A stretch of DNA of 64,000 nt from Desulfomicrobium orale DSM 12838. GTDB lineage: Bacteria > Desulfobacterota > Desulfovibrionia > Desulfovibrionales > Desulfomicrobiaceae. The notes beneath the pieces were generated by a model that made no database searches, was not told the origin of the DNA, and worked only from the letters and a program-made list of their open reading frames with translations. The translations under genes were made by a program, and so were the position numbers. The DNA lies in assembly GCF_001553625.1 (NCBI RefSeq), contig NZ_CP014230.1, positions 1,054,001 through 1,118,000 of the forward strand, read 5' to 3'. This document shows, piece after piece, positions 23,570 through 37,377 of this stretch (positions are counted from its first letter, which is position 1; the number at the start of each line of letters is the position of its first letter).

Positions 23570-24889
23570 TCAGTTTCTTCCCTCCTTTGCGCTGAAATCC
23601 GCACTCCGGGCCGCTTCAAGGGCTGAAGCCGCCTCGGCGGAATCCTCAAGCAGCAGGTTTTCCAGTTCGGCGTAAATTTTCCGCAGTTCTTCATCGGAGG
23701 ACATGCGCGTGGCGGAAAATCCGTGGATCAGGAGGCTCCTGTTTCGGGCCTTCACAAAATCACCCTCGCCGACCTTGAGTAATCTGGCTCCCATGGGATC
23801 ACCCAGTACCTTCAGCAGCCGGGCCGACAGTTCCCTTGGGGCGGTGTAATTTCCGGTTTTACGAATAACCCCGAACCCGCTTTCATTCTCTTTCAACTTG
23901 GCTTTCAGCTCCTGTACGGCCGGATGTTCCGGAGGAAGCTGACCAGAATCCAGACCATGCATAAAAAGCCGGGCCTGGCCGATGAGTTCCAGTACCCGGT
24001 AAGCCCGCAAATAGGCGTCCTCGAACTGACGGTCCCGGATTCTGCGTTCTCCGTTGGCCAACAGGTCCACCGCTCTGACCCGCACCCAATCGGCACACTC
24101 CTCATTGAGGTCGGGTTTGGTTTCGGCCAGCCGCCGCACATGCTTGCACACATCTGTGCCGGGCACAAAGCACTCCCAGCCTTTGTCCGGACATTCCGGC
24201 AAGCCTCCGCCCAGCAGTTTTCCGGCCTCGGCGTAATCCAACCGGTCCCAGGCAGCGTAAAAGGCCGCCGCCGCCCGCCCGAACCGGGACAATTTTTGTA
24301 CATCATCAGGCCATACGCCCGCCATGGGACCGCTGACGTCCGGCAGAATATCCAGCACTGCTGCAAAATTTCCCTTTTTCATAACCAGCAGAGCCTGGTC
24401 CAACAGCCGGTGTCCGCTGGAAATCCTCGTGGGGAACTCGTGTATATCTTCTGTTCCGGCAATGACGTTCCCGGTCTTTCCTCTCTGCCCGACAATATAT
24501 CGCAGCCGGGGAATATCGTAACGGGAGGCGGCCAGAACCAGTGCGGCGCTCATGGCCTTGGTGCCCCGGGTGAAGTCCGCCACCATCCGCTCCGGAGGCG
24601 TTCCGGCGGCGATGCGGCCGGCAATGACTTTCTCGAAATGGGCGTAGGTCTTATCCGCATCGTTCTCCTGCCCAGAGCCGGGCAGAGGCTCCATCACAAT
24701 AGGGATGCCCTGCAGCTCATCATGAAGCAACTGCGCGGAGCGGGCCGTTTCCTGGGAGGGCAGCAACACCACTTCCTGCCATTCTCCTTTGAGAATGGAT
24801 TTTTTGAGCGGAATGAGCAGAGTTTTTTCTAAATCTTCGATATTACCAGTTCCTACTGTCGCAAAAAGTATCTTTCCTCTATCTGCCAT
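23570..24889 (-). CDS. CARF-HEPN CRISPR ribonuclease, Csm6/Csx1-like (Cas02710 family)
   Basis: 439 aa ancillary effector of the type III system. The N-terminal CARF domain starts with KILFATVGTGNIEDL and has the FTRGTKAMSAAL motif (near residue 107), the ligand-binding element of the Cas02710/TIGR02710 group that senses cyclic oligoadenylate made by Cas10. The C-terminal half is helical, with a HEPN RNase motif R-x4-H in ARNRSLLIHG (near residues 382-389). The start at MADRGK is preferred over an ATG 12 bp upstream because GGAG lies 6 bp before it. It lies 3' of the array on the same strand as the cas genes, apart from the main operon. Assignment to Csm6 rather than Csx1 is not resolved. Confidence 0.85.
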   Translation of the reverse strand: MADRGKILFATVGTGNIEDLEKTLLIPLKKSILKGEWQEVVLLPSQETARSAQLLHDELQGIPIVMEPLPGSGQENDADKTYAHFEKVIAGRIAAGTPPERMVADFTRGTKAMSAALVLAASRYDIPRLRYIVGQRGKTGNVIAGTEDIHEFPTRISSGHRLLDQALLVMKKGNFAAVLDILPDVSGPMAGVWPDDVQKLSRFGRAAAAFYAAWDRLDYAEAGKLLGGGLPECPDKGWECFVPGTDVCKHVRRLAETKPDLNEECADWVRVRAVDLLANGERRIRDRQFEDAYLRAYRVLELIGQARLFMHGLDSGQLPPEHPAVQELKAKLKENESGFGVIRKTGNYTAPRELSARLLKVLGDPMGARLLKVGEGDFVKARNRSLLIHGFSATRMSSDEELRKIYAELENLLLEDSAEAASALEAARSADFSAKEGRN

Positions 24890-24996
24890 TACAATCTCCA
24901 TTATTCGTGGTTATGCCGCACACTGGCCCGGAACAATTCTGAATATCCATCCTTCTTCTTCGGAGATGAGACGAAAGACAAGATAGTATATACTGT

Positions 24997-25113
24997 TCAA
25001 GATTCCGATATAATCCCATCATCCCCATTTTTTGTCACGTAGTTATATTCTAGAAGGCATTCTTCAATGTCTTTCATGGCAGAGGTCATCGCAATCCCCT
25101 CTTTTATCTGCAT
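24997..25113 (-). CDS. Possible 30-38-aa leader ORF upstream of the Csm6-like gene
   Basis: A minus-strand frame MQIKEGIAMTSAMKDIEECLL... ending at 24997. A start at the internal ATG 25089 (MTSAMKDIEEC) would have GAGGGG 6 bp upstream as ribosome-binding site, and that GAGGGG belongs to the repeat-like sequence at 25089-25108. No homology recognised. It could be a short upstream peptide, or simply untranslated leader of the csm6-like gene. Confidence 0.25.
   Translation of the reverse strand: MQIKEGIAMTSAMKDIEECLLEYNYVTKNGDDGIISES
25089..25108 (-). repeat. Orphan fragment of the CRISPR repeat upstream of the csm6-like gene
   Basis: Reads GATAAAAGAGGGGATTGCGA on the minus strand. This equals the 3' half of the array repeat, including the crRNA-handle part ATTGCGA, with one extra A. 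The uninterrupted match is 16 nt. It lies 0.8 kb from the array's distal end and about 200 bp upstream of the csm6-like start, in the same orientation. The 5' half of the repeat is not recognisable. Confidence 0.6.
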
Positions 25114-25433: not shown

Positions 25434-25453
25434 AGGCCCTCCGAAGAGGACCT
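25434..25453 (-). terminator. Intrinsic terminator with UUCG tetraloop
   Basis: On the minus strand AGGTCCTC-TTCG-GAGGGCCT is followed by TTCTTTTT. An 8-bp stem capped by the very stable UUCG loop. It directly follows the 26-codon gene at 25457-25537 and terminates the small cassette. Confidence 0.85.
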
Positions 25454-25456
25454 GCT

Positions 25457-25537
25457 CTAGTTTTGCTTGCGGGCGAGGTAGAGGCCCCATGCTATGACCG
25501 CAAGGACCATCGCCAGCGTAAGTCCCCATACCATCAT
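25457..25537 (-). CDS. 26-aa hydrophobic membrane peptide
   Basis: Short frame MMVWGLTLAMVLAVIAWGLY then LARKQN: one transmembrane segment followed by a positive cytoplasmic tail. Its ATG overlaps the stop of the upstream 50-codon gene (ATGA), and a strong terminator follows its stop at once. Both points argue for real coding. Function unknown; one-span peptides of this kind are known in phage lysis, toxin and accessory membrane systems, but nothing here decides between them. Confidence 0.6.
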   Translation of the reverse strand: MMVWGLTLAMVLAVIAWGLYLARKQN

Positions 25538-25686
25538 GACGTCCCCTCCATTTTGCGGGTGAGCAACATGCATCCGCCAAAGGCCACCACGGCAATCACG
25601 ATACCAAAAGGATTGCTTTGGAAAAGACCGACGGCCAAGGCCGCGACGCTGACTTTTTCCAGCCAGTCAGCAAATCTTTTGACCAT
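25534..25686 (-). CDS. 50-aa small membrane protein, homologous to a target of the adjacent CRISPR
   Basis: Begins MVKRFADWLEKVSVAALAVG and continues LFQSNPFGIVIAVVAFGGCM, LLTRKMEGTS. It has an amphipathic N-terminus, then two short hydrophobic stretches in a helical hairpin. AAGGAGGAGG lies 4-5 bp before the ATG, an unusually strong site. The start region (SD, ATG and the first four codons) closely matches the spacer at 27839-27878: 23 identical contiguous nt, then a start reading M-I-K-R where this gene reads M-V-K-R. The gene and the spacer target are therefore homologous. It is likely part of a mobile-element module. No family recognised. Confidence 0.65.
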   Translation of the reverse strand: MVKRFADWLEKVSVAALAVGLFQSNPFGIVIAVVAFGGCMLLTRKMEGTS

Positions 25687-25746
25687 ACCTCCTCCTTAAT
25701 CCCTGATTTTCTTCCTGTCCATTGCTCCGGCTTGATCCGGCTGTCT

Positions 25747-25905
25747 TTACTTTTTTGCAGGTACAAGTCTGGGGAGGGCCTTCCTTTCGTCAACCTGTCT
25801 GCGGGCGGCGATGCCACCTGGCTCGGCACTCAGGGTCGGTGCGCCGCCATAATCCGGTGTACCGCTCCATGGTCCGAAGACCATTTTGCCGCTGATAATC
25901 TTCGC
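25747..25905 (-). pseudogene. C-terminal fragment of an unknown gene at the array edge
   Basis: A minus-strand frame of about 50 codons (AAKIISGKMVFGPWSGTPDY, GGAPTLSAEPGG, ... LVPAKK) ends about 60 bp before the small membrane gene. Upstream the frame runs into the terminal degenerate CRISPR repeat and hits a stop within it. The composition looks protein-coding, so it is probably the tail of a gene cut off when the array or its flank was placed here. A short gene starting at the internal ATG (25881) is an alternative. Confidence 0.4.
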
Positions 25906-26021
25906 AGCCCCCTCTTTATCGGGTCATGCAGTGATATGGCTTTGTCGGAGTTATACGTGCGCATTGATGCGTGCGTGTCGCAATCCCCTCTTTATCGGGT
26001 CATGCAGTGATATATTTTCAA

Positions 26022-26757
26022 GGGTCATGCCTAGCTGAGTGGATTTTCTCTGAGCATTTTGAGCAGAAGTTTATAACTATCTTCGTTTCTATGGTTAAAG
26101 CGAAATTCACATTCTTTCAAATGAAAGTAAAAAGTGTGCTTGGGCAAACCCCTAAAACGAACAAGTCGTGTTTTGGCAAAAGCCCAGAAGCTCTCAATGC
26201 CGTTAATGTGTGAGTTTTTATTGGCAAATTCATTGTTGCCATGCTCAACCCGGAAGTGTTTTTGGTAGCCTAGGTCTACGAGACCATCATAGCCGCGCCA
26301 GCCATCAGAGTGAATAATGCTTTCAAGTTTCACGCGGCCCCGGATGATCCCTTGGAGGGTGATTTTTGAACAGTCCGGGACAATTTCGGTATAAACGCGA
26401 CCTTCACGCTTGAATAAGCCGAACACAATGGTTTTGCCCTTGGCTCCTCGGCCTCTGACTCCTTTAACGCGGCGTGCGCCAAAATAGCTTTCATCAACCT
26501 CAACTTCGCCTTGAACAGGAGACTCCGCCTCGCAGAACCGGGCAATCCTCTCTCGGAAAGCAGCCAGATAACGGTTCGCGGTATTACGATTTACCCCGGC
26601 TATTTCAGCTATCTGCAGGGCATTCAAATCCACGGCAAACAGCTTCACTATTTGTCGGACTTTGGCCTCTGAAATTCTTGAACGCTTCGCATACTTGTTT
26701 TTCATTGTCGTGACTAGCCTTATAGTCGAATGGAGACTCACGGACTAGGCATGACCC
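26022..26757 (-). mobile_element. IS1595-family insertion sequence, copy B, inside a spacer
   Basis: 736 bp, apparently the same sequence as copy A, in the same orientation. The 8-bp target duplication ATTTTCAA lies at 26014-26021 and 26758-26765. Removing the element and one duplication restores a normal 40-nt spacer flanked by two intact repeats. Insertion happened exactly at the repeat/spacer edge, with the duplicated 8 bp being the first 8 bp of the spacer on the plus strand. It would separate the two distal repeats from the rest of the array transcript. Confidence 0.97.
26031..26705 (-). CDS. IS1595-family transposase, copy B
   Basis: 224 aa, identical in sequence to the protein of copy A, with the same HTH and DDE motifs (VEVDESYFGA, IIHSDGWRGY, NGIESFWA). 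Intact. Transcription runs in the same direction as the array, so crRNA precursors could read into it, or its own transcript could reach the two distal repeats. Confidence 0.93.
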   Translation of the reverse strand: MKNKYAKRSRISEAKVRQIVKLFAVDLNALQIAEIAGVNRNTANRYLAAFRERIARFCEAESPVQGEVEVDESYFGARRVKGVRGRGAKGKTIVFGLFKREGRVYTEIVPDCSKITLQGIIRGRVKLESIIHSDGWRGYDGLVDLGYQKHFRVEHGNNEFANKNSHINGIESFWAFAKTRLVRFRGLPKHTFYFHLKECEFRFNHRNEDSYKLLLKMLRENPLS

Positions 26758-28296
26758 ATTTTCAAAACTCTCAACCCCGAACAGCTCGCCGAACTGAGTC
26801 GCAATCCCCTCTTTATCGGGTCATGCAGTGATATCCTTTTTCAAAAATCAAAGACCGCGACAACGTGTGGGCTGTCGCAATCCCCTCTTTATCGGGTCAT
26901 GCAGTGATATTCAAAAATGAAAAAGGAAAATGAGCAATTGAGGTTACAGCGTCGCAATCCCCTCTTTATCGGGTCATGCAGTGATATCGAGTCCAAACCG
27001 GCGGCCGGAGGATATGCGTCAGGACAGCGTCGCAATCCCCTCTTTATCGGGTCATGCAGTGATATGTGAAAAACTTCAGGGTGCGAAGAACAGAGGTGAC
27101 GAGCTTTGTCGCAATCCCCTCTTTATCGGGTCATGCAGTGATATTGAGTGTGAATTTTCCATCATGAACATAAGCATAAGAACCGAGTCGCAATCCCCTC
27201 TTTATCGGGTCATGCAGTGATATTATTTATATTGTTTTTAACTAAACAATTATATTTATATATTTGTCGCAATCCCCTCTTTATCGGGTCATGCAGTGAT
27301 ATGATTTATTAAAAATATAAAGGAAAAAATAATAAATGAGTAGTCGCAATCCCCTCTTTATCGGGTCATGCAGTGATATGCCCGAAGTCGTTGCACGCTT
27401 GGCGATCGACGACCCTACTGCGTCGCAATCCCCTCTTTATCGGGTCATGCAGTGATATGATAGGTCACATTGTGCACCTACCCAATAAACATATTTGTCG
27501 CAATCCCCTCTTTATCGGGTCATGCAGTGATATTAACTTTTTTAAAAAATTGGAGGGGAATATGAATACACTCGTCGCAATCCCCTCTTTATCGGGTCAT
27601 GCAGTGATATTTAAAAAAAGAGGAAAATTATGGATACTTATGAAATTGCGTCGCAATCCCCTCTTTATCGGGTCATGCAGTGATATGCAACACAGAGCGA
27701 TTTGTACGCCGGCGTTTTGAGCGCGTCGCAATCCCCTCTTTATCGGGTCATGCAGTGATATCTTATAGCTTTACCACAATAAGAACAAATAACTGGGTGG
27801 TGTCGCAATCCCCTCTTTATCGGGTCATGCAGTGATATGATAAAATCAGGGATTAAGGAGGAGGCATGATAAAACGTCGTCGCAATCCCCTCTTTATCGG
27901 GTCATGCAGTGATATCGGCAAGGAGGCGTCCGTCAGCACGTCCAGCCGCACCGAGTCGCAATCCCCTCTTTATCGGGTCATGCAGTGATATGCCGGTTGT
28001 TCGGGCCTGCTCCAATGGCCTACTTTCTGCGTCGCAATCCCCTCTTTATCGGGTCATGCAGTGATATCTCACACAAAAGTCCGAGGTGACGACGGACGAT
28101 GACGGCGTCGCAATCCCCTCTTTATCGGGTCATGCAGTGATATGGCAGGAGGTGCAGCTCAGGCAGAAACAGGCAATATTAGTGTCGCAATCCCCTCTTT
28201 ATCGGGTCATGCAGTGATATTCCCCGCCTGCGCCTCCTCCAGGAGCTGCATTATACCCCGTCGCAATCCCCTCTTTATCGGGTCATGCAGTGATAT

Positions 28297-28797: not shown

Positions 28798-29835
28798 TCA
28801 GCCACCATACAAAAAGGGCTGGTACGGACTGCCGTTCCGCAGGGAGGCGGCGAAGCGTTCCACCTGGCGACCGAGAATATCCCTGGGCGTCGGCCTCTCC
28901 GCGTTGCCTTGCTCCCGCAGGGGTTTGCCCAGATGCTCCTCCCACTGGGCAAAGAATATCCTGAGGCCCTCTTGGGTCAGACGCACGCCGCCATCCTCGT
29001 CCGGAGGTTCAAAGTGTTCCGGACGGATGATACGCAGGTTGCAGCTTCGCAGGACGAAGCGATCGACAATGGGGTGGCGGAGTTCTTCAAGCAGATCGAG
29101 GGCAAGGCTTGCCCGGCCGGACCGAAGATCGTGGAGAAATCCGATGCAGGGATCGAGCCCCCTGCCTTCCAGCAATCCCGCAAGCTTCGATGCCAGAATC
29201 ACGTACCCGAAGGACAACAGAGCGTTGGCCGGATCGGAGGCCGGCCGGTGCTTCCGTCCGTGAAAGGGGATTTCCGCCCGGAAGGCTCCGCCCAATGCCT
29301 CGAAGTAGCAACGCGCGCCGCTGCCTTCGACCCCGAGCAGGCTGCCGATCTCCCGGCATGAATGCACCGCCTCCGCCATGCGTTTGAGTTCCGCCAGAGC
29401 CCGTCCCAAAACTTCGTTGCCGGGATTGTTGCTCTGGATATCCCGCAGAACGGCGTGGGCGTTCAGAAGCTTGGCGCGCACAGCGTCAGCCGCGCGGGCC
29501 AGTCTCGTCTCCGCCTCCGAGGCGGCTGCATACTGACGCAGCCGGATATCCGCCGAACGCGGCATGGCGCCGACAGTGCGGCCGAGGAACTCGCCGCCGC
29601 GGGTCAGCCAGGCGGTCGAAATGCCTCGTTCCAGGCAATGCCGCATGGCCGCGGAAGTAATGTGGGCCCTGCCGACGATGCATACCAGCTCCAGCCTGTG
29701 CGACTCCACCTCCATCAGGACTTTCCGCCGCCCGGTCCCGCCGCCGTCCGAAGGATACTCCTCGGCGGTCACCAGCAGACTCTCGCCGGACTGGCGCACG
29801 GTGGCGCCGGGAACAGTGACGTACAAAACAGGCAT
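28798..29835 (-). CDS. cas1: CRISPR integrase Cas1
   Basis: 345 aa, normal length. An N-terminal beta domain (MPVLYVTVPGATVRQSGE) is followed by a helical catalytic domain with the metal-binding regions: the Glu-containing helix before SNNPGNEVLGRA, GLDPCIGFLHD with the conserved His, and LALDLLEELRHPIVDRFVL with the acidic residues. No reverse-transcriptase or Cas6 fusion is present. The start at MPVLYV lies 8 bp after the csm5 stop; a longer opening upstream overlaps csm5 and is rejected. The array's spacers indicate that adaptation has been active. Confidence 0.95.
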   Translation of the reverse strand: MPVLYVTVPGATVRQSGESLLVTAEEYPSDGGGTGRRKVLMEVESHRLELVCIVGRAHITSAAMRHCLERGISTAWLTRGGEFLGRTVGAMPRSADIRLRQYAAASEAETRLARAADAVRAKLLNAHAVLRDIQSNNPGNEVLGRALAELKRMAEAVHSCREIGSLLGVEGSGARCYFEALGGAFRAEIPFHGRKHRPASDPANALLSFGYVILASKLAGLLEGRGLDPCIGFLHDLRSGRASLALDLLEELRHPIVDRFVLRSCNLRIIRPEHFEPPDEDGGVRLTQEGLRIFFAQWEEHLGKPLREQGNAERPTPRDILGRQVERFAASLRNGSPYQPFLYGG

Positions 29836-29843
29836 CGCGCCAC

Positions 29844-31388
29844 CTATCCATCCCCAAGAATGCCCCGGACCTTCTGCACCTTGACCCACTGCTTGTCCGT
29901 GCACTTTTTCTTTTCCCATTTGCCGGCCTTTTCCCAGAATGCCCGCAACGCCTGTGCGGACTTCCGGCGGAGAGGCTCATCCAGCCCGTCCAGTTTGCCG
30001 TAGAGCTCCACGGCCTGGTTCTCATTGCCGCCGCTTTCCACCGCTGAGATAAGGCGTTCCTCCGGAGTCATGGCCGCCAGTTCTTCCTGCCGCTGGGCCT
30101 CGGCTTCCTGCCGTTCCCGTTCGGCCTGTTCCCGCTCGGCCCGTTTTCTGGTTTCGGCCTCGCGTTCTTCGAGACGCACGTGACGCCGGCGGACGCGCTC
30201 GGCCAGAAAAGCGGTGTCGTGCTCTTCCCGCCGGGCGCAGGCCTCGGCGTATTCCCCGGCGCTGACAATGCTCAGTCGCGCCCAGCCAAAAGGATGGATG
30301 CCGTCGGCCAGGGTGCGGGTGGTGCCGGAAGGCATGAAGCTTCCATCCTTCAGCCGCCGGGTCTGGGGCTGATTGTTGGTCACGGTCATGCACTCCACAT
30401 GGGAGTAATGCCCCAGGCGGAGGATCATGGCATCCGGGCCCGGCTCGGCCATGACGGCATCAACGGGCTTTAGGGCGGCGAGGGACCGGTCAAGATGCTG
30501 TTGCAGGTAGAAGGCGCCGCGTTCCGTACTGTAGCGCTCCCGGTAGAATTCATTGCACAGTTCCATCAGCTCCCGCAGGGTCCACGCTTTTTCCCTGCCC
30601 CGCATGGAGACCGTCAGGGCCGTATCGCGGCTGCCCGCATCGTGTGCGCCTACGGCGATTTTGCCGTACAGGGCGGGGCTTTGGCCGGACATGCTCAGGG
30701 AAAGGGTTGCCTCGCACGGATTTTTCGGAGTGCCCTGTTTGTTCGGGTTGTACCGCCGCCGCACTTCCTTTGCCGTCACAATGACCGACTCCCCGAGGGC
30801 CGCCGGGAAATCACCGACCTTGAGGTTACGGAAGGCGTTTTCGCTGACCTTGCCCAGCAGTTCCTCCAAAGCGCGTCCATAGCCCTGGCGGGGATCTCTG
30901 TTCATGGCCTCTTTGAGGTTTACCTTCCAGTTCCTGTCCAGCCAGTCGATGACGGCCGTGCGGATCGCGCCTTTGATGGACGAGCCGGGAACAAGCAGGG
31001 CGCCGGTGAGCGGATTCTTCAGGGCCGGGTCGATAAGCAGCTGATTGGCGCTGTCCCGGGAAGCCAGTTCCCGGTCATATTTCTCATAGATTTCCCGCGA
31101 AGCCACCCGCACTGGCGCGCCGCCGTACACTTCCACCAGCGGGGCCAGCTCTTTGGCCAGATGGGCCCGGATTTCCGGAAGAGGCTTTGTGGAAAAAAGC
31201 TCCGCCAGTCCGGCCGGGTCTGGATGCGCTTCCACCCAGGAAGGCACGTCCACGGAATAGAGAAACGGATTTCCGCCTTCTTCCTTCATGATGTAGGACA
31301 GCGGGTCCATGGTCTCCCCGGTGCCGATGTGGATCGGCGTGAGGGGTTCGAGGCGGATGAAGGCGGTCTGCTCGTGAAGGCGCGTCAT
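29844..31388 (-). CDS. csm5: Csm5, type III-A RAMP subunit with C-terminal coiled-coil extension
   Basis: 514 aa, longer than the usual Csm5 of roughly 350-400 aa. The N-terminal RAMP fold has IRLEPLTPIHIGTGETMDPL and the Gly-rich loop PGSSIKGAIRTAVIDWL (near residues 135-150). This subunit caps the 3' end of the crRNA in the Csm complex. After about residue 385 comes a very charged Arg/Glu/Gln coiled coil (EREAETRKRAEREQAERE...) and then a small helical domain ending VQKVRGILGDG. The start MTRLHEQ overlaps the csm4 stop by 4 bp. Confidence 0.9.
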   Translation of the reverse strand: MTRLHEQTAFIRLEPLTPIHIGTGETMDPLSYIMKEEGGNPFLYSVDVPSWVEAHPDPAGLAELFSTKPLPEIRAHLAKELAPLVEVYGGAPVRVASREIYEKYDRELASRDSANQLLIDPALKNPLTGALLVPGSSIKGAIRTAVIDWLDRNWKVNLKEAMNRDPRQGYGRALEELLGKVSENAFRNLKVGDFPAALGESVIVTAKEVRRRYNPNKQGTPKNPCEATLSLSMSGQSPALYGKIAVGAHDAGSRDTALTVSMRGREKAWTLRELMELCNEFYRERYSTERGAFYLQQHLDRSLAALKPVDAVMAEPGPDAMILRLGHYSHVECMTVTNNQPQTRRLKDGSFMPSGTTRTLADGIHPFGWARLSIVSAGEYAEACARREEHDTAFLAERVRRRHVRLEEREAETRKRAEREQAERERQEAEAQRQEELAAMTPEERLISAVESGGNENQAVELYGKLDGLDEPLRRKSAQALRAFWEKAGKWEKKKCTDKQWVKVQKVRGILGDG

Positions 31389-32374
31389 ATGGTGTCCTCC
31401 TTGGCAGGGGTGAAGGCGATGGTCAGGGGCCACGTTACCTGAACCACCCTTGAATCCGGATGCAGACCCCGAAGGACATAGCCGGAGGCGGGCAGACTCT
31501 TGAAGACCGAGCCCTCCTCCATGGCCAGGAAGGTTTTCTTGAACGGGTTGGCCTGCCCCAGCGCGCCGCCGGCGCGGCCGGACTTGGCAAAGACGCGGTA
31601 CCAGCCCGACGCTTCGGACAGATTCATAGCGGAGAGCACCGACAGACTCATCCGGTGGGAGCCGCTGCCGTCGAGTTCGCCGGGCGTGAAGGCTTCATCG
31701 CGGGTGAAGTCAAACCATCCCTTGCCCGTGCTGGCGTCCCGGCCGAATCCTGTGGCCGCCACATGCCGAAGCAGCCGCTCGAAGCTGTCGGGGGCGTCCG
31801 TCCGGACATAGAGATCGAGCCTGACCCCGGAGCCGTAGAAGGTTGAATCCGAAAGAAACAGGCCGCCTTCCTGCAGAACGCTCCCCGTGGCCCGGTCGAT
31901 GCTGTTGTGCGCCTCCACATGGCCGGTTCGCCATGTGTTCTCAAAGGGGGCGGGTTTGGGCCGGAAGATGTCCGGGGCCTGGAGCCATCGCTCGAAAAGG
32001 CCGGCCAGGCTCAATCCGCCGCGTAAAGCGGCCCAGAGATCGACAGGAACATGAGCCTGTTTCCGGAACGCTTTATAGGCGTTCAGAGCTTCCACCTTGT
32101 CCCCTTTGAACATTCCGCCCGGAGCGCAAAAGCGGTCCCGAAAGGCGCTTCTGGACAAAGGCGGCAGGCAGGGCATGGGCAGCATTCCCGCCGGGAAGGC
32201 GGAAGAGCAGACAAAGGGCGGGTTGTCCGAGTCAAAAGCGGCAATGAGCCCGGCCACAGCCTCGCCGCCGTCAAGTTCCGCTGCGGCGCACAGAAGCTGA
32301 CCGTGCAGGGTGTCGCTGCGCAGGGGCGTGCCGAAGGCCCCGCGCGGAGTAATCGTGTACCGGTACAGTGGCAT
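31385..32374 (-). CDS. csm4: Csm4, type III-A RAMP subunit binding the crRNA 5' handle
   Basis: 329 aa. Two RAMP-like halves are visible: an N-terminal ferredoxin fold beginning LYRYTITPRGAFGTPLRSDTL and a C-terminal part with GFGRDASTGKGWFDF, the Gly-rich loop typical of Csm4. It sits next to Cas10 at the base of the complex and holds the crRNA handle. Co-directional between csm3 (9-bp gap) and csm5 (4-bp overlap). Confidence 0.92.
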   Translation of the reverse strand: MPLYRYTITPRGAFGTPLRSDTLHGQLLCAAAELDGGEAVAGLIAAFDSDNPPFVCSSAFPAGMLPMPCLPPLSRSAFRDRFCAPGGMFKGDKVEALNAYKAFRKQAHVPVDLWAALRGGLSLAGLFERWLQAPDIFRPKPAPFENTWRTGHVEAHNSIDRATGSVLQEGGLFLSDSTFYGSGVRLDLYVRTDAPDSFERLLRHVAATGFGRDASTGKGWFDFTRDEAFTPGELDGSGSHRMSLSVLSAMNLSEASGWYRVFAKSGRAGGALGQANPFKKTFLAMEEGSVFKSLPASGYVLRGLHPDSRVVQVTWPLTIAFTPAKEDTI

Positions 32375-32383
32375 GGCCCGCTC

Positions 32384-33064
32384 CTAGTCGAGGTTCACAC
32401 TCGCCAGATCCACCTTTTGCCCGTCGCAGGTCAGATCGCTGAAACTGACCTGCCCGCAGCCTCTGGACCCGCATCCGCCCAGAGCGTCCAGTTCGATGAG
32501 CCTGAGCCCCCGGTACACATAGTCGATCAGGTCGGAGGCATCGCCCTCGAACACCTTGAAAGAAAGGTTGAAATCAAAGGCCACACCGGCGGGAACACGT
32601 TCCAGCGGCCGGGGGTGCTCCGCGATGCCTTTCACTCTGTGGATGATGTTTTCGTATTTCACCTCCATGGGCAGCTCACCCTGGGCAAAGCGTTTCCGGT
32701 CTGGGTCGCAGAGCATGGCGTCGCGCACCATGAGCCGCGAAGGGCCGGTGTCGGAGTCCTTCTTGTCCCCGGAAGAGCCGAAGATGACGCAGGCCGGGCA
32801 GTCCTTCTGCCCGCAGCCGCAGGGTCTGCCTTTTCCGACGAAATCGCGGGTCCGCGGATTTCCGATGAAATAATAGACTTCAAGCAGGGAGCGCATCTTG
32901 CCCTTGAGGGACGAACCCGGAACATAGGGCTCCCCGGTGATGGGGTGCTTGACGATGGGCTGGTCCAGTCCGCCGATTTCGATGATATCCCTGCCCGCGC
33001 CGATGTGCAGACCGGAAACGACCTGGAGCGTGCCGGTGACATGTTTGATCTTTTCGAGTTTCAT
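32384..33064 (-). CDS. csm3: Csm3, backbone subunit and target-RNA ribonuclease
   Basis: 226 aa Cas7-type subunit that polymerises along the crRNA and cleaves target RNA at 6-nt intervals. GLHIGAGRDIIEIGGLDQPI contains Asp34, aligned with the catalytic Asp33 of the S. thermophilus protein, so target slicing should be intact. PGSSLKGKMRSLLE is the Gly-rich RNA-binding loop, and a Cys cluster (CGCGQKDCPAC) suggests a zinc site. Located 17 bp after csm2. Confidence 0.95.
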   Translation of the reverse strand: MKLEKIKHVTGTLQVVSGLHIGAGRDIIEIGGLDQPIVKHPITGEPYVPGSSLKGKMRSLLEVYYFIGNPRTRDFVGKGRPCGCGQKDCPACVIFGSSGDKKDSDTGPSRLMVRDAMLCDPDRKRFAQGELPMEVKYENIIHRVKGIAEHPRPLERVPAGVAFDFNLSFKVFEGDASDLIDYVYRGLRLIELDALGGCGSRGCGQVSFSDLTCDGQKVDLASVNLD

Positions 33065-33081
33065 ATAATTTCTCCCCTGTG

Positions 33082-33510
33082 TCAGGAATTGCTCATGCCG
33101 AGGCCATAGCAGAAACCGACCACGGCTTCGAAATGGAGCATGAAGGCCTTGAAATCGTCGGCGGTCTCGATGGCGTCGATGTTCTTCTTCAACCAGTCCG
33201 CAAAGGAGGGCGGAACTTTTGCGTTACGCGGGTTGGAGGCGTAGGCCACCTTGGATTTGACCATCTTCACCAGAGGCAGAACCGCAAGAAACGGGTCCGC
33301 TTCATTTCCGGTCTGCTGCCTGGAATCCAGCTTCCGCTCCAGGTTTTTCAGGTCCCCGTAAAAACGCCGCAATTGCGCGGAGTTCACGGAATTACGGTCA
33401 TCCCGTTTGCCATCGGGACGCAAGACAACGAACTTCTTGGCGACATCCTCCGATTCCGTTCCGAGAAGTTCCGGGCGTATGTTCCCTTTGCCGTCGAAGT
33501 AGATACTCAT
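33082..33510 (-). CDS. csm2: Csm2, small subunit of the type III-A complex
   Basis: 142 aa, mainly helical, Lys/Arg-rich. LRRFYGDLKNLERKL and LPLVKMVKSKVAYASNP are the characteristic Csm2 helices; DDFKAFMLHFEAVVGFCYG ends the protein. It lines the target RNA opposite Csm3. It lies 9 bp after cas10, and the presence of Csm2 rather than Cmr5 defines subtype III-A. Confidence 0.9.
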   Translation of the reverse strand: MSIYFDGKGNIRPELLGTESEDVAKKFVVLRPDGKRDDRNSVNSAQLRRFYGDLKNLERKLDSRQQTGNEADPFLAVLPLVKMVKSKVAYASNPRNAKVPPSFADWLKKNIDAIETADDFKAFMLHFEAVVGFCYGLGMSNS

Positions 33511-33519
33511 CGGTCCTCC

Positions 33520-35973
33520 TTATTCTGTCCGCATTCTGTAGAGTGCATAGGAAATGGCCAGCCGCATCCGTTTCAGGGTTTCCGGATCCGTACCCAGGGC
33601 CTCCAGTTCTTCCCGGTCCTTTTCCGCAAGGACCTTGCCGTTCAGATTTCTGGCGAAGTCGTAACGCATGTGTGAGCGGTACATGCCGCTGCGGCGTCCA
33701 CCCCGGCCGCTCGAAAAGGCCGCGCAATCGTCGGCGTAGCCCATGAGCCGCCGCAGCAGCCCCGAAGGGATGCCGCCGCCAAGGGCAAGTTCTTCAAGCC
33801 ACAGGCCCTTGCGACTGAGTCTGGAATATTCCTCCCATCCGGCGGTCACGCCCAGCGCGGTCACGGCATTTTTGGTCCGGCCGTTTCCGTCCGTACTCCG
33901 GTAGTTTTTGGACTCGTCCAGCAGGATTTCCGCGTTGCGGGCAATGGTGTTGGCGGGCAGGGCGGGCTTGGCGACAAAAATGCCCGCGGACAGCGTAATG
34001 TCGCTGTTGTCCGCGACATAGCGCCGGAACTCCGCCGCCAGTTCTTCCGCGAAATCCATCATCTGGTGCCAGGGGCCGATGAGGAAAAGATCGTCGCCCC
34101 CGGCGAACACCGTGTATATGTCGTTGTAGAGCCGGTTATCGCGGATCATGCCGGTCATGACCTCGGCAAAGAAATGATTGAGCATCCGGGAGAGGCCCGC
34201 GAACCGGGACAGAGAGAGCCTGTCCCCGAACCCGATGCTGAAAAGCAGCCCCAGATTGTCCACGTCGGCCTTGAAGGCTCCGAGAAAAGCCTTGCCGCGC
34301 AGTCCGCCCTGGCCGTCGGCAATACGCGCCTCCTGGGCCAGATGGGTGAAGGTCTTCGGGGCTCCGGACCTGATTTCTTCCTCCTGGTCGGTCTGGCGGC
34401 CTTCCTCTTTCCATCTGGTATCATCGCCGGGGGCGAATCTGGGCAGGTGTCCCGCGATGGCGTGACCCGTGAACCGGGTCCGGTCGCGCAGGTTCAGAAT
34501 GTCCAGGGCGTCCTTGTGCCGTCTGTCGGCTTCTTCCATGAAATGGAGCCATATCCCGCCGAACAGCTGCACGCCGTTTGGTGACGGGGTGCCGGAGAAA
34601 AGGGCGAATGGCGCTGTCGGCAGCCGCCCGCCGATCCGGCTGATCTGGGCTTCGCACTGTCCGCAGAGCCCGGCGGGTTTGCCGGTCTGCTGTTCATAGC
34701 GGGCGCTGGCCGCGTCCGACACCGGGTTGATCTGGCAGACCGCGCAGGCTCCGGACGAGAAATCCTCATCCTCGCGGCCCGCCACGGGAGAGCGCCCTGC
34801 TTCCAGCAGACTGGAGAATTTTCTCATCTTCCGCGCTTCCAGCTGGTCGAAAAATTCATCGAGCCGCCGGCTGAAAACGGCCAGTTCAAAATCCTTTTCA
34901 CTCATCCGCACCGCATGACTCAGGTTGAGAGACAGACGGCCCTTGAATTCATCAAGAAACCATGCCTGCACCTCGTCGGCGAACGCAGGCAGCAGTGCCT
35001 CGACCTTGGGCACCGCGGGCAAAAGCAGGATGAAGCGTCCGCCGGCGTCCATGATTCTGGCCAGGGGAAAAAGCTCCGCCCGTTCCAGAAAGGTGAGAAT
35101 GACCGAATGGGTGAGAGCCTGCAGATGAAAGGACCGGGCGCGAAGCAGCTTGGCCACGCCGGTACCGTGCGATTTTTCGATGCCGAAGATATAGGACTGG
35201 ATGCCCGAGAGATCACCCCCCATGAGAATGAATTTCTGCGTGTCCCCGGAGCCGGGCATGTCGCCGTGGTGGTGATGGTACACGAACAGGGCCTGGGCTA
35301 TGGCCGCGGTGGTCACGGCGTGGTCGTAGAGCGAAATGTCCGGTTCGGTCTTGTAAGTGGAGGAGGGGATGCACCAGGTGTAGCGCTCCAGAAGGGAAAC
35401 AAGAGAAGAAAGATAGTGCCTGACGCCCATGTCCCGCGGGATCGCGCCAAGTCCTTCGAGAAAGGTGTCGAACAATTCCGGATAGCCGGTTTTGCGGGCC
35501 TCGTCCAAATCCGTGGGGAAAGGATCTTCCTCGATGGGGGCCAGGGCGTGGTATTTTCTGGGGGCACCGCCGTTTTCCGAAAAACGTATCTGCGAAAAAG
35601 CCGAGAGCAGCCGGGCGGTCATGTAATCACCCGCGTCCTCCTCCTGCCGGGCTCGATCCATGCCTGCGGACAGGCGGTCCGCCCTGGAGAGAACCTGCTC
35701 CATCAGGTTGTCTCCCGCAGGCTTGTGGTGAGCCGAGGCCAGCCGCGCGATACGCGATCTGCAGGGCTCCAGCTCCGGAGGGAGCGGCAGATCGTTTTCG
35801 ATGAAATAATCGCTGTACAGAACATGCAGGTGGCTCGGCCTGCCCCCTTGGGAGACCGGGCAATATTCGCCTTCCAGATCGACGCTTTTGGGCCGCCGCG
35901 CACGCTGGGCGAGCTTGCCGATATCGTGCAGCAAGGCGGAAAGAACCAGAATCTCCATTTCAGTCCGTACCAT
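33520..35973 (-). CDS. cas10: Cas10/Csm1, large subunit with HD nuclease and cyclase
   Basis: 817 aa. The N-terminal HD nuclease has LLHDIGKLAQR (near residue 14), which normally degrades ssDNA. A Cys4 zinc ribbon is seen as CAVCQINP... and CGQC (near residues 410-440). The second Palm domain carries VFAGGDDLFLIG (near residue 624); the intact GGDD implies synthesis of cyclic oligoadenylates, consistent with the CARF-HEPN effector at 23570-24889. It starts directly after the cas6 stop. Confidence 0.97.
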   Translation of the reverse strand: MVRTEMEILVLSALLHDIGKLAQRARRPKSVDLEGEYCPVSQGGRPSHLHVLYSDYFIENDLPLPPELEPCRSRIARLASAHHKPAGDNLMEQVLSRADRLSAGMDRARQEEDAGDYMTARLLSAFSQIRFSENGGAPRKYHALAPIEEDPFPTDLDEARKTGYPELFDTFLEGLGAIPRDMGVRHYLSSLVSLLERYTWCIPSSTYKTEPDISLYDHAVTTAAIAQALFVYHHHHGDMPGSGDTQKFILMGGDLSGIQSYIFGIEKSHGTGVAKLLRARSFHLQALTHSVILTFLERAELFPLARIMDAGGRFILLLPAVPKVEALLPAFADEVQAWFLDEFKGRLSLNLSHAVRMSEKDFELAVFSRRLDEFFDQLEARKMRKFSSLLEAGRSPVAGREDEDFSSGACAVCQINPVSDAASARYEQQTGKPAGLCGQCEAQISRIGGRLPTAPFALFSGTPSPNGVQLFGGIWLHFMEEADRRHKDALDILNLRDRTRFTGHAIAGHLPRFAPGDDTRWKEEGRQTDQEEEIRSGAPKTFTHLAQEARIADGQGGLRGKAFLGAFKADVDNLGLLFSIGFGDRLSLSRFAGLSRMLNHFFAEVMTGMIRDNRLYNDIYTVFAGGDDLFLIGPWHQMMDFAEELAAEFRRYVADNSDITLSAGIFVAKPALPANTIARNAEILLDESKNYRSTDGNGRTKNAVTALGVTAGWEEYSRLSRKGLWLEELALGGGIPSGLLRRLMGYADDCAAFSSGRGGRRSGMYRSHMRYDFARNLNGKVLAEKDREELEALGTDPETLKRMRLAISYALYRMRTE

Positions 35974-36963
35974 TCAATCCTCCTCGTCGTCTGCTTTGCC
36001 GGTAATCCGAAGACCATCCGCAGGCTCCGGCCGCCAGACCATCTCCAGTTTACCCAGCCCGAAAGTTGATTGTTTTCCCAGATGCAGGAGGCCCGCCATT
36101 TCCAGTACCGGCAAATACTCTCCGGGTACGCCCGCATAGCGGACCGTGCCGACCATGCCGCCCAGCATCATCCGGCGTTTCTGCCGGTTGGAATACCGCT
36201 CCCAATCCAGCCACCGCAGCTTGCAGGAAAGGGTTCGCACCTGGGCGGCTTCGGCCGCGAGACGGGCATATTCCAGATCGGGTTCGCCGTTTCCGTGAAC
36301 GGCGAAAACGGCCGAGACTCTGCGCAGCGCCGCCCGGACAAGCACGTGAAAAGGAAGCGTGTCCTGAAGCTGGCTGTGAAACTTCAACCGCAAAGGAGTC
36401 CGCAGGGCGGCCGTCAGGGTCCAAAAAGCGCCGGAAGGAGCTTCCCGCAGCCGTATATGACCAGCTACGGGCTCGGTGGCCAGCCGCCCGGTTTCCGGGT
36501 CAAAAAGGTTGACGCCCGGCTTCTGCCCGACTTCCTGCAGTACAAAGCGTCCGCCACCCGGTCCATTCCCGCGTCTGCCAATGCCCCGCCGTCCCATCAT
36601 CTCAAAGGCGTTCAGAAAAAACGGCAGACAGGAATTGGCTTCGCCAAACAGAAGCAGATTGAAAGACAGGGATTCGCCTCTGCCAAGGCGGGATAAATGT
36701 TCAGAAGGAGGTTCGAGAACGTAGGCCGGAGGCGGCTCCATACCCCGAAGATTTACGCCGTCGGGGAGAAATTTGGGCTCGAAGGTTTTGGCGTAGAGGC
36801 ATCTTTTGGCAATGCCGCAGCTTCCGCAGTCGCGGGACAGATTGCCGCACATGGAGGTCTTCAGGGCCGTTCCAAAGGCCCCGCGCAGGGTGGAGCCGAG
36901 GTAGCCCGGCAGCAGGATGTCGTCTTCAGCGCGGACTGTGATGAAATATCGCCCGAAACGCAT
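35974..36963 (-). CDS. cas6: Cas6 crRNA-processing endoribonuclease
   Basis: 329 aa, first gene of the cas operon. It cuts the repeat to leave the 8-nt handle. Two RAMP-type folds; the C-terminal Gly-rich loop is LLHLGKQSTFGLGKLEM near residue 300. An unusual Cys cluster near the N-terminus (MCGNLSRDCGSCGIAKRCLY) suggests a bound metal, as in the Cas6 subgroup with CRISPR_Cas6 (PF10040)-like architecture. The start at 36963 is preferred because GGGAGAG precedes it; upstream ATGs at 36975 and 37017 lack this. The catalytic His cannot be named from sequence alone. Confidence 0.88.
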   Translation of the reverse strand: MRFGRYFITVRAEDDILLPGYLGSTLRGAFGTALKTSMCGNLSRDCGSCGIAKRCLYAKTFEPKFLPDGVNLRGMEPPPAYVLEPPSEHLSRLGRGESLSFNLLLFGEANSCLPFFLNAFEMMGRRGIGRRGNGPGGGRFVLQEVGQKPGVNLFDPETGRLATEPVAGHIRLREAPSGAFWTLTAALRTPLRLKFHSQLQDTLPFHVLVRAALRRVSAVFAVHGNGEPDLEYARLAAEAAQVRTLSCKLRWLDWERYSNRQKRRMMLGGMVGTVRYAGVPGEYLPVLEMAGLLHLGKQSTFGLGKLEMVWRPEPADGLRITGKADDEED

Positions 36964-37377
36964 GGGCTCTCCCATGTTGAGAATGGAACCCGGATTGCCG
37001 TTCGGCAAACCTGTCATCCGGGCTGTTCACGGCATCCTTGCCTGTCCGACCTTCCTTGGCGTGACTGTCTTTGTGGCACATTTGATTCAAAAATGGAACG
37101 GCCTGTCCTCCATGAGATGGCAGTTCCTCTTCGCCGATGGATATTGACAACCCATGAAAAGATTCAGGAGCCAGCCATAGAATTGTCAAGCGGACTCCGT
37201 TGCATTATATGTGTCGATCTCAAAATCTGAGATAGCCGGAAATATATTATGATGCAGAAAGTCCATCATGCATATGAGAGAGAAGATAAGAAACTGCATA
37301 TATATACAGGTCATAATATATTTATTCATGATGAACCATGTAAGTGAAGCAGATGCTTCTAAGGATTACTCTCTTTG
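36964..37377. other. Divergent region upstream of cas6 and the deacetylase gene
   Basis: 414 bp without a gene. The right half (37200-37370) is strongly AT-rich with palindromic patches such as CATATATATACAGG and ATAATATATTTATT. A possible minus-strand -35 TTGACA (37184-37189) faces the cas operon, with only a weak -10 (TGAATC, 17-bp spacing). AAGGA at 37361-37365 is the likely ribosome-binding site of the deacetylase. Confidence 0.4.

Follow-up and report, generated by a model that had tools for sequence, protein, structure and literature searches.

A type III-A CRISPR spacer of Desulfomicrobium orale with a near-self match to the start region of a small-membrane-protein gene beside its array

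The type III-A locus and the cassette at its distal end

The window, a stretch of 64,000 nucleotides, was taken from the single-contig genome of Desulfomicrobium orale DSM 12838 (2,783,374 bases). Read along the minus strand, the locus comprises genes for Cas6, Cas10, a Csm2-like protein, Csm3, Csm4, Csm5, Cas1 and Cas2, followed by the CRISPR array, a pair of genes for small membrane proteins and a gene for a CARF-HEPN protein. The features are as follows.

23570–24901, minus strand: Csm6-type CARF-HEPN protein (TIGR02710, PF09670), Csm6 HEPN domain, R-x-x-x-x-H present
25085–25105, minus strand: partial repeat remnant, one base inserted, beyond the small pair as seen from the array and within a small ORF
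25434–25453, minus strand: terminator-like hairpin and T tract, 3' of the gene pair
25457–25537, minus strand: 26-aa small membrane-protein gene, 4-nt overlap (ATGA) with the 50-aa gene
25534–25686, minus strand: 50-aa small membrane-protein gene, first of the pair, protein MVKRFADWLEKVSVAALAVGLFQ...
25696–25722, minus strand: candidate 8-codon leader ORF, proposed from its translation (MDRKKIRD, then stop)
25901–25937, minus strand: degenerate leader-distal terminal repeat; cas1 and cas2 lie at the opposite array end
25901–28296, minus strand: CRISPR array, 22 repeats of 37 nt
26014–26797: IS1595-family element inside a spacer, transposase at 26031–26741 on the minus strand, 8-bp duplication ATTTTCAA
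28496–28819, minus strand: cas2
28798–29919, minus strand: cas1, 373 aa, without a reverse transcriptase domain
29844–33510, minus strand: csm5, csm4, csm3 and a csm2-like gene, csm2 being assigned from position only
33520–35973, minus strand: cas10/csm1 with HD and GGDD motifs
35974–37017, minus strand: cas6 (PF10040)

This is a complete type III-A system without a reverse transcriptase. Cas10/Csm1 matched TIGR02578 with 617 bits (HD at 16, GGDD at 625), and Csm3 (TIGR02582), Csm4 (TIGR01903) and Cas6 (PF10040) exceeded their cut-offs, with Csm5 falling just below (35.3 versus 38.3). No reverse transcriptase family match was obtained in Cas1 and no reverse transcriptase-like ORF was seen in the operon, and acquisition of spacers from RNA, as in type III systems with RT-Cas1, was therefore rejected. 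Rfam and tRNA scans of the 64-kb window gave no matches. On the minus strand the repeat ends in ...GGGGATTGCGAC, its crRNA-side end being ATTGCGAC. From this repeat end, together with the degenerate repeat far from cas1 and cas2, we conclude that the array is read leftwards, which makes its crRNA antisense to the mRNA of the 50-aa gene. The IS1595-family element may keep transcripts of the leader-proximal array from reaching the last repeats.

Two further repeat-bearing loci occur in the same genome. Near a type I-C cas1, another array (L236, 2227050–2228900) contains several repeated spacers, with TTATCCGTGACGGTGG... present five times, pointing to recombination between repeats. A solitary copy of the III-A array repeat (L235, 2144518–2144554; 34/37 identical) has its three differences all in the loop, with the flanking stem and the handle kept. 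It lies in a conjugative gene cluster, across the beginning of a gene for a VirB1-like lytic transglycosylase, including the start codon and signal peptide. Solitary repeat units have been described as RNA anti-CRISPRs (PMC10651486); the copy at L235 is similar, but differs from them in covering a coding start, in antisense orientation.

The small proteins gave no Pfam or NCBIfam match and no significant PHROGs match. A profile search of 297 class genomes detected the 50-aa family in 49 of them, in as many as seven copies per genome. The family also occurs outside the class, in a Campylobacterota and a Planctomycetales assembly, and on five IMG/VR contigs. Where relatives of the 50-aa gene have a named source, it is mostly Desulfovibrio, and the pairing with the 26-aa gene recurs in most relatives. 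Read by eye, the neighbourhoods of various copies contain tyrosine-integrase genes, a resolvase and tRNA 3' ends. At the syntenic locus of the closest relative (L111, cas region about 71% identical), the array is directly followed by the CARF gene, without the cassette, which was therefore probably inserted at the resident locus. This distribution fits a putatively mobile cassette, not a vertically inherited gene, and the resident copy is best read as such a cassette, apparently lodged in the array trailer. As the original prediction required, homologues are not confined to vertically inherited genes: copies of the 50-aa gene lie on mobile elements. A role as a conserved CRISPR accessory gene was rejected, most homologues being away from cas genes and L111 lacking the cassette. 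Upstream of the 50-aa gene, many cassette copies share recurring short motifs (ATGGACAG..., GGCTATCT...) with the appearance of a short leader ORF.

Of the 79 distinct copies of the cassette, only those in the window and at two other loci (L077 and L245) lie directly behind a degenerate last repeat, where about 0.02 such loci would be expected by chance (rough estimate). The arrays at these three loci are type III-like, with the cassette on the same strand. At L077 (1–1200) there are two tandem copies with a repeat-spacer-repeat unit between them; at L245 (3800–4486, minus strand) the cassette behind the degenerate terminal repeat is frameshifted. A preference for inserting at array ends might explain the association. 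About two dozen other type III array loci were examined, and none has a cassette.

The near-self match and its pairing with the resident mRNA

The match concerns one spacer of the array and the start region of the 50-aa gene.

27839–27878, crRNA strand minus: spacer whose plus-strand sequence is the sense strand of a start region
25674–25713, minus strand: near-self target, 32/40 identical to the spacer, with a 23-nt exact block at 25688–25710

The spacer is 40 nt long (plus-strand sequence GATAAAATCAGGGATTAAGGAGGAGGCATGATAAAACGTC) and sits mid-array between two perfect 37-nt repeats, 2.2 kb from the resident gene. Its near-self target, which reads AAGAAAATCAGGGATTAAGGAGGAGGTATGGTCAAAAGAT on the minus strand from 25713 to 25674, spans the ribosome-binding site and the start of the 50-aa gene. 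A script recount gave 32 identical positions out of 40 and 23 out of 23 nt in the block, and thus bore out the 23-nt identity, its coordinates and the reading of the start codons as ATG-ATA-AAA-CGT (M-I-K-R) in the spacer versus ATG-GTC-AAA-AGA (M-V-K-R) in the resident gene; the orientation originally noted, with the crRNA antisense to the ribosome-binding site of the 50-aa gene mRNA, was likewise right. The block is more than a ribosome-binding-site consensus, as it also contains AAAATCAGGGATTAA, and the last codons and stop of the leader ORF candidate fall within it. An exact 23-nt match of a 40-mer to a 2.78-Mb genome has a chance expectation of about 1e-6 (rough estimate), and blastn against the own genome returned the match with E = 1e-6 to 2e-5. 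The near-self match is genuine and non-random.

The own-genome search covered the array segment 26830–28262, which lies on the leader side of the spacer at 25938–25976 and of the spacer split by the IS element, and no other spacer of this segment had an off-array match better than E of about 0.3. In self-targeting, a spacer fully matches its own chromosome; here the identity is 32/40, and the next own-genome matches are noise. The self-targeting spacers reviewed in PMC6990116 are similar in matching the own chromosome partially, the difference being the 32/40 identity with mismatches mostly at the guide 5' end.

Between the guide and the resident mRNA, mismatches fall at positions 1, 2, 4, 8, 10, 14, 38 and 40 counted from the handle, those at 1, 10 and 14 being G-U wobbles, and pairing is uninterrupted at positions 15–37. 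The computed duplex energy is -54 kcal/mol for the resident mRNA; a perfect target gives -71 kcal/mol, and random stretches of the window average -18 kcal/mol. A check of 5' tag complementarity, proposed along with the original prediction, showed that the anti-tag matches the 3' flank of the resident mRNA at 2 of 8 positions, which places the target on the non-self side of the rule; self-recognition would thus not protect the resident RNA. In the Thermus Cmr complex (type III-B), pairing at guide positions 1–7 is needed for cyclic oligoadenylate synthesis, but not for binding or cleavage, and the binding seed is located towards the guide 3' end (PMC8376896). Reasoning from this III-B complex, and not from the III-A complex of this lineage, we infer that the resident mRNA may here be bound and cut without raising the alarm.

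Spacers antisense to translation starts in type III-A arrays

In four spacers of the own array, an ATG follows a Shine-Dalgarno-like motif in the target sense; the opposite sense has no such case. This pattern, noticed here before the test was made, was examined in 31 type III-A arrays (the own array, 14 from the class and 16 from the phylum), with 19 type I-C arrays of the class as the control; arrays were oriented by the repeat end, and starts were recognized by motif, with protospacers unmapped. Of the 531 spacers in the type III-A arrays, 44 cover a start region in antisense and 2 in sense orientation (40 versus 2 without the own array), compared with 10 antisense and 7 sense among 258 type I-C spacers. 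Antisense exceeds sense in 15 arrays and the reverse holds in 2 (sign test, p = 0.002), and stricter and looser start motifs agree with the excess. For comparison, coding-strand stretches of lambda and Mu reach 3.7% and 3.6%, about half the antisense rate of 8.3%, these backgrounds being drawn from other phages.

Type III spacers have a known coding-strand bias of about 65% (PMC8482600), and in a type III system without reverse transcriptase the strand bias was attributed to selection (PMC7515739). The present system resembles known type III-A systems with an RT-less Cas1 in its Cas10 with HD and GGDD motifs, Csm3–5, Cas6, Csm6, Cas1-Cas2 and coding-strand spacer bias. It differs in that one of its spacers nearly matches a gene only 2.2 kb from it, and the start bias of about 20–22:1 found here differs from the bias of about 2:1 over whole ORFs for type III (PMC8482600). 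A partial literature search found no earlier report of an excess at start regions. Spacers like that at 27839–27878 are common in type III arrays, and since antisense-to-start spacers are general in the sampled arrays, this feature does not indicate a special relation to the neighbouring gene.

Origin of the spacer and alternative explanations

We consider it likely that the spacer at 27839–27878 is the memory of a mobile homologue of the cassette, and that the near-self resident copy is tolerated. The match and the mismatch map support the originally noted origin in a close homologue, not in the resident copy, and the cassette has a patchy distribution, occurs in multiple copies, turns up on viral contigs and often neighbours an integrase or tRNA gene, so that the spacer most likely records a mobile relative. 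It would then be an ordinary type III-A immune memory of a mobile element carrying such a relative, which we propose was retained for its antisense orientation to a transcript, the translation start being covered by happenstance, as it is by about 8% of the type III-A spacers sampled. The resident cassette would be a diverged copy (32/40) at the distal end of its own array, whose mRNA the Csm complex may bind, and perhaps cut, through guide positions 15–37. As far as the type III complexes studied so far are a guide, the mismatches at positions 1, 2 and 4 would stop Cas10 from making cyclic oligoadenylate, and the near-self pairing would for this reason be tolerated.

The source itself was sought by blastn of the full spacer against phage and plasmid records, by core patterns in IMG/VR, and by a start-region pattern, with up to three mismatches allowed, in the 297 class genomes. 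Apart from this spacer and the resident copy, these searches recovered noise and no exact source. Of the mobile-element searches suggested earlier, those with the 50-aa family thus led to IMG/VR contigs, and those with the spacer to no exact source in phage or plasmid records. The proposal that the resident cassette is a remnant of the immunizing element holds in so far as the cassette appears mobile and is absent from L111, but no exact mobile source was found. For another spacer of the array, a 21-nt match on five IMG/VR contigs was rejected as a true source and attributed to a chance start-region match (25/40 identity), and two further array spacers gave no match in IMG/VR. Conservation is higher in the 5' untranslated block than in the codons that follow the start, a pattern that simple divergence of a homologue would not necessarily produce and that counts against a mobile homologue as the source; the candidate leader ORF MDRKKIRD may account for this better-conserved stretch.

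The spacer might instead have been acquired from the resident locus, the resident sequence later diverging to escape. Handle-proximal escape mutations would give such a pattern, and self-acquired spacers are known (PMC6990116); however, the six differences within 14 bases around and after the start, some of them synonymous (AGA versus CGT, Arg), exceed what escape needs. The second chromosomal copy of the 50-aa family (L014) is no better source and was rejected as such, its 19/40 identity being at noise level. We regard self-acquisition as unlikely, and we hold the same view of a later arrival of the cassette on an element whose variant evades an existing spacer. The position of the cassette within the array trailer, its absence from the nearest relative (L111) and the fall of the mismatches in the region required for signalling agree with a later arrival, but one genome cannot give the relative timing of spacer and cassette, and this scenario is close to that of a remembered mobile homologue, from which it differs mainly in the order of events.

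A regulatory role was also considered, in which the crRNA covers the ribosome-binding site and silences the small membrane proteins, possibly toxins, as a type III counterpart of CreTA that would free the toxin once CRISPR is lost. The antisense position over the ribosome-binding site, the 23 unbroken base pairs, the duplex of -54 kcal/mol versus the mean of -18 kcal/mol, and the occurrence of related cassettes behind degenerate terminal repeats at L077 (two copies) and L245, above chance by our rough estimate, all speak for it, the position behind array ends being the strongest hint. However, no spacer or pseudo-spacer at L077 or L245 matches the local cassette, the L245 copy being frameshifted besides; the guide is a mid-array spacer with perfect repeats, unlike an ectopic degenerate unit; the mismatches are arranged as expected for a diverged foreign target; and most cassette relatives are far from any array. 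We therefore judge regulation distinctly unlikely. The regulation of the resident transcript envisaged in the original prediction found no support, as no other spacer is near-self, the guide 5' end is mismatched and L077 and L245 are without a match.

As described, CreTA works through the type I Cascade (PMC9458426). The locus resembles it in that small genes follow the degenerate repeat of an array and a guide is partly complementary to a control region, but lacks defining parts of that arrangement. CreTA has an extra-array guide flanked by degenerate repeats, whereas the resident guide comes from a regular mid-array spacer with both repeats perfect; and its complementarity is to the toxin promoter, that of the spacer being, as far as seen, to the ribosome-binding site of an mRNA, with none at the two other loci. 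The scaRNA/Cas9 repression of a lipoprotein operon in Francisella novicida is alike in that a CRISPR-derived RNA is partly complementary to a 5' untranslated region, but it is a type II system with a separate small RNA and a degenerate repeat, according to PMC9458426, and not a canonical type III spacer. Still more speculative, and in our judgement very improbable, is an addiction module in which the small-membrane-protein pair repeatedly settles behind type III terminal repeats and is silenced by array crRNA, with a type III effector acting on mRNA.

The analysis also brings to light a previously undescribed two-gene membrane-protein cassette, apparently mobile. If the start pattern holds on mapped protospacers, useful type III spacers would be those that hit accessible or ribosome-bound RNA. 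The layout of mismatches between the spacer at 27839–27878 and the resident mRNA would separate binding from signalling: with 23 pairs over the presumed seed and the Cas10-activating end mismatched, this spacer and transcript may serve as a natural test of how far type III immunity tolerates near-self RNA.
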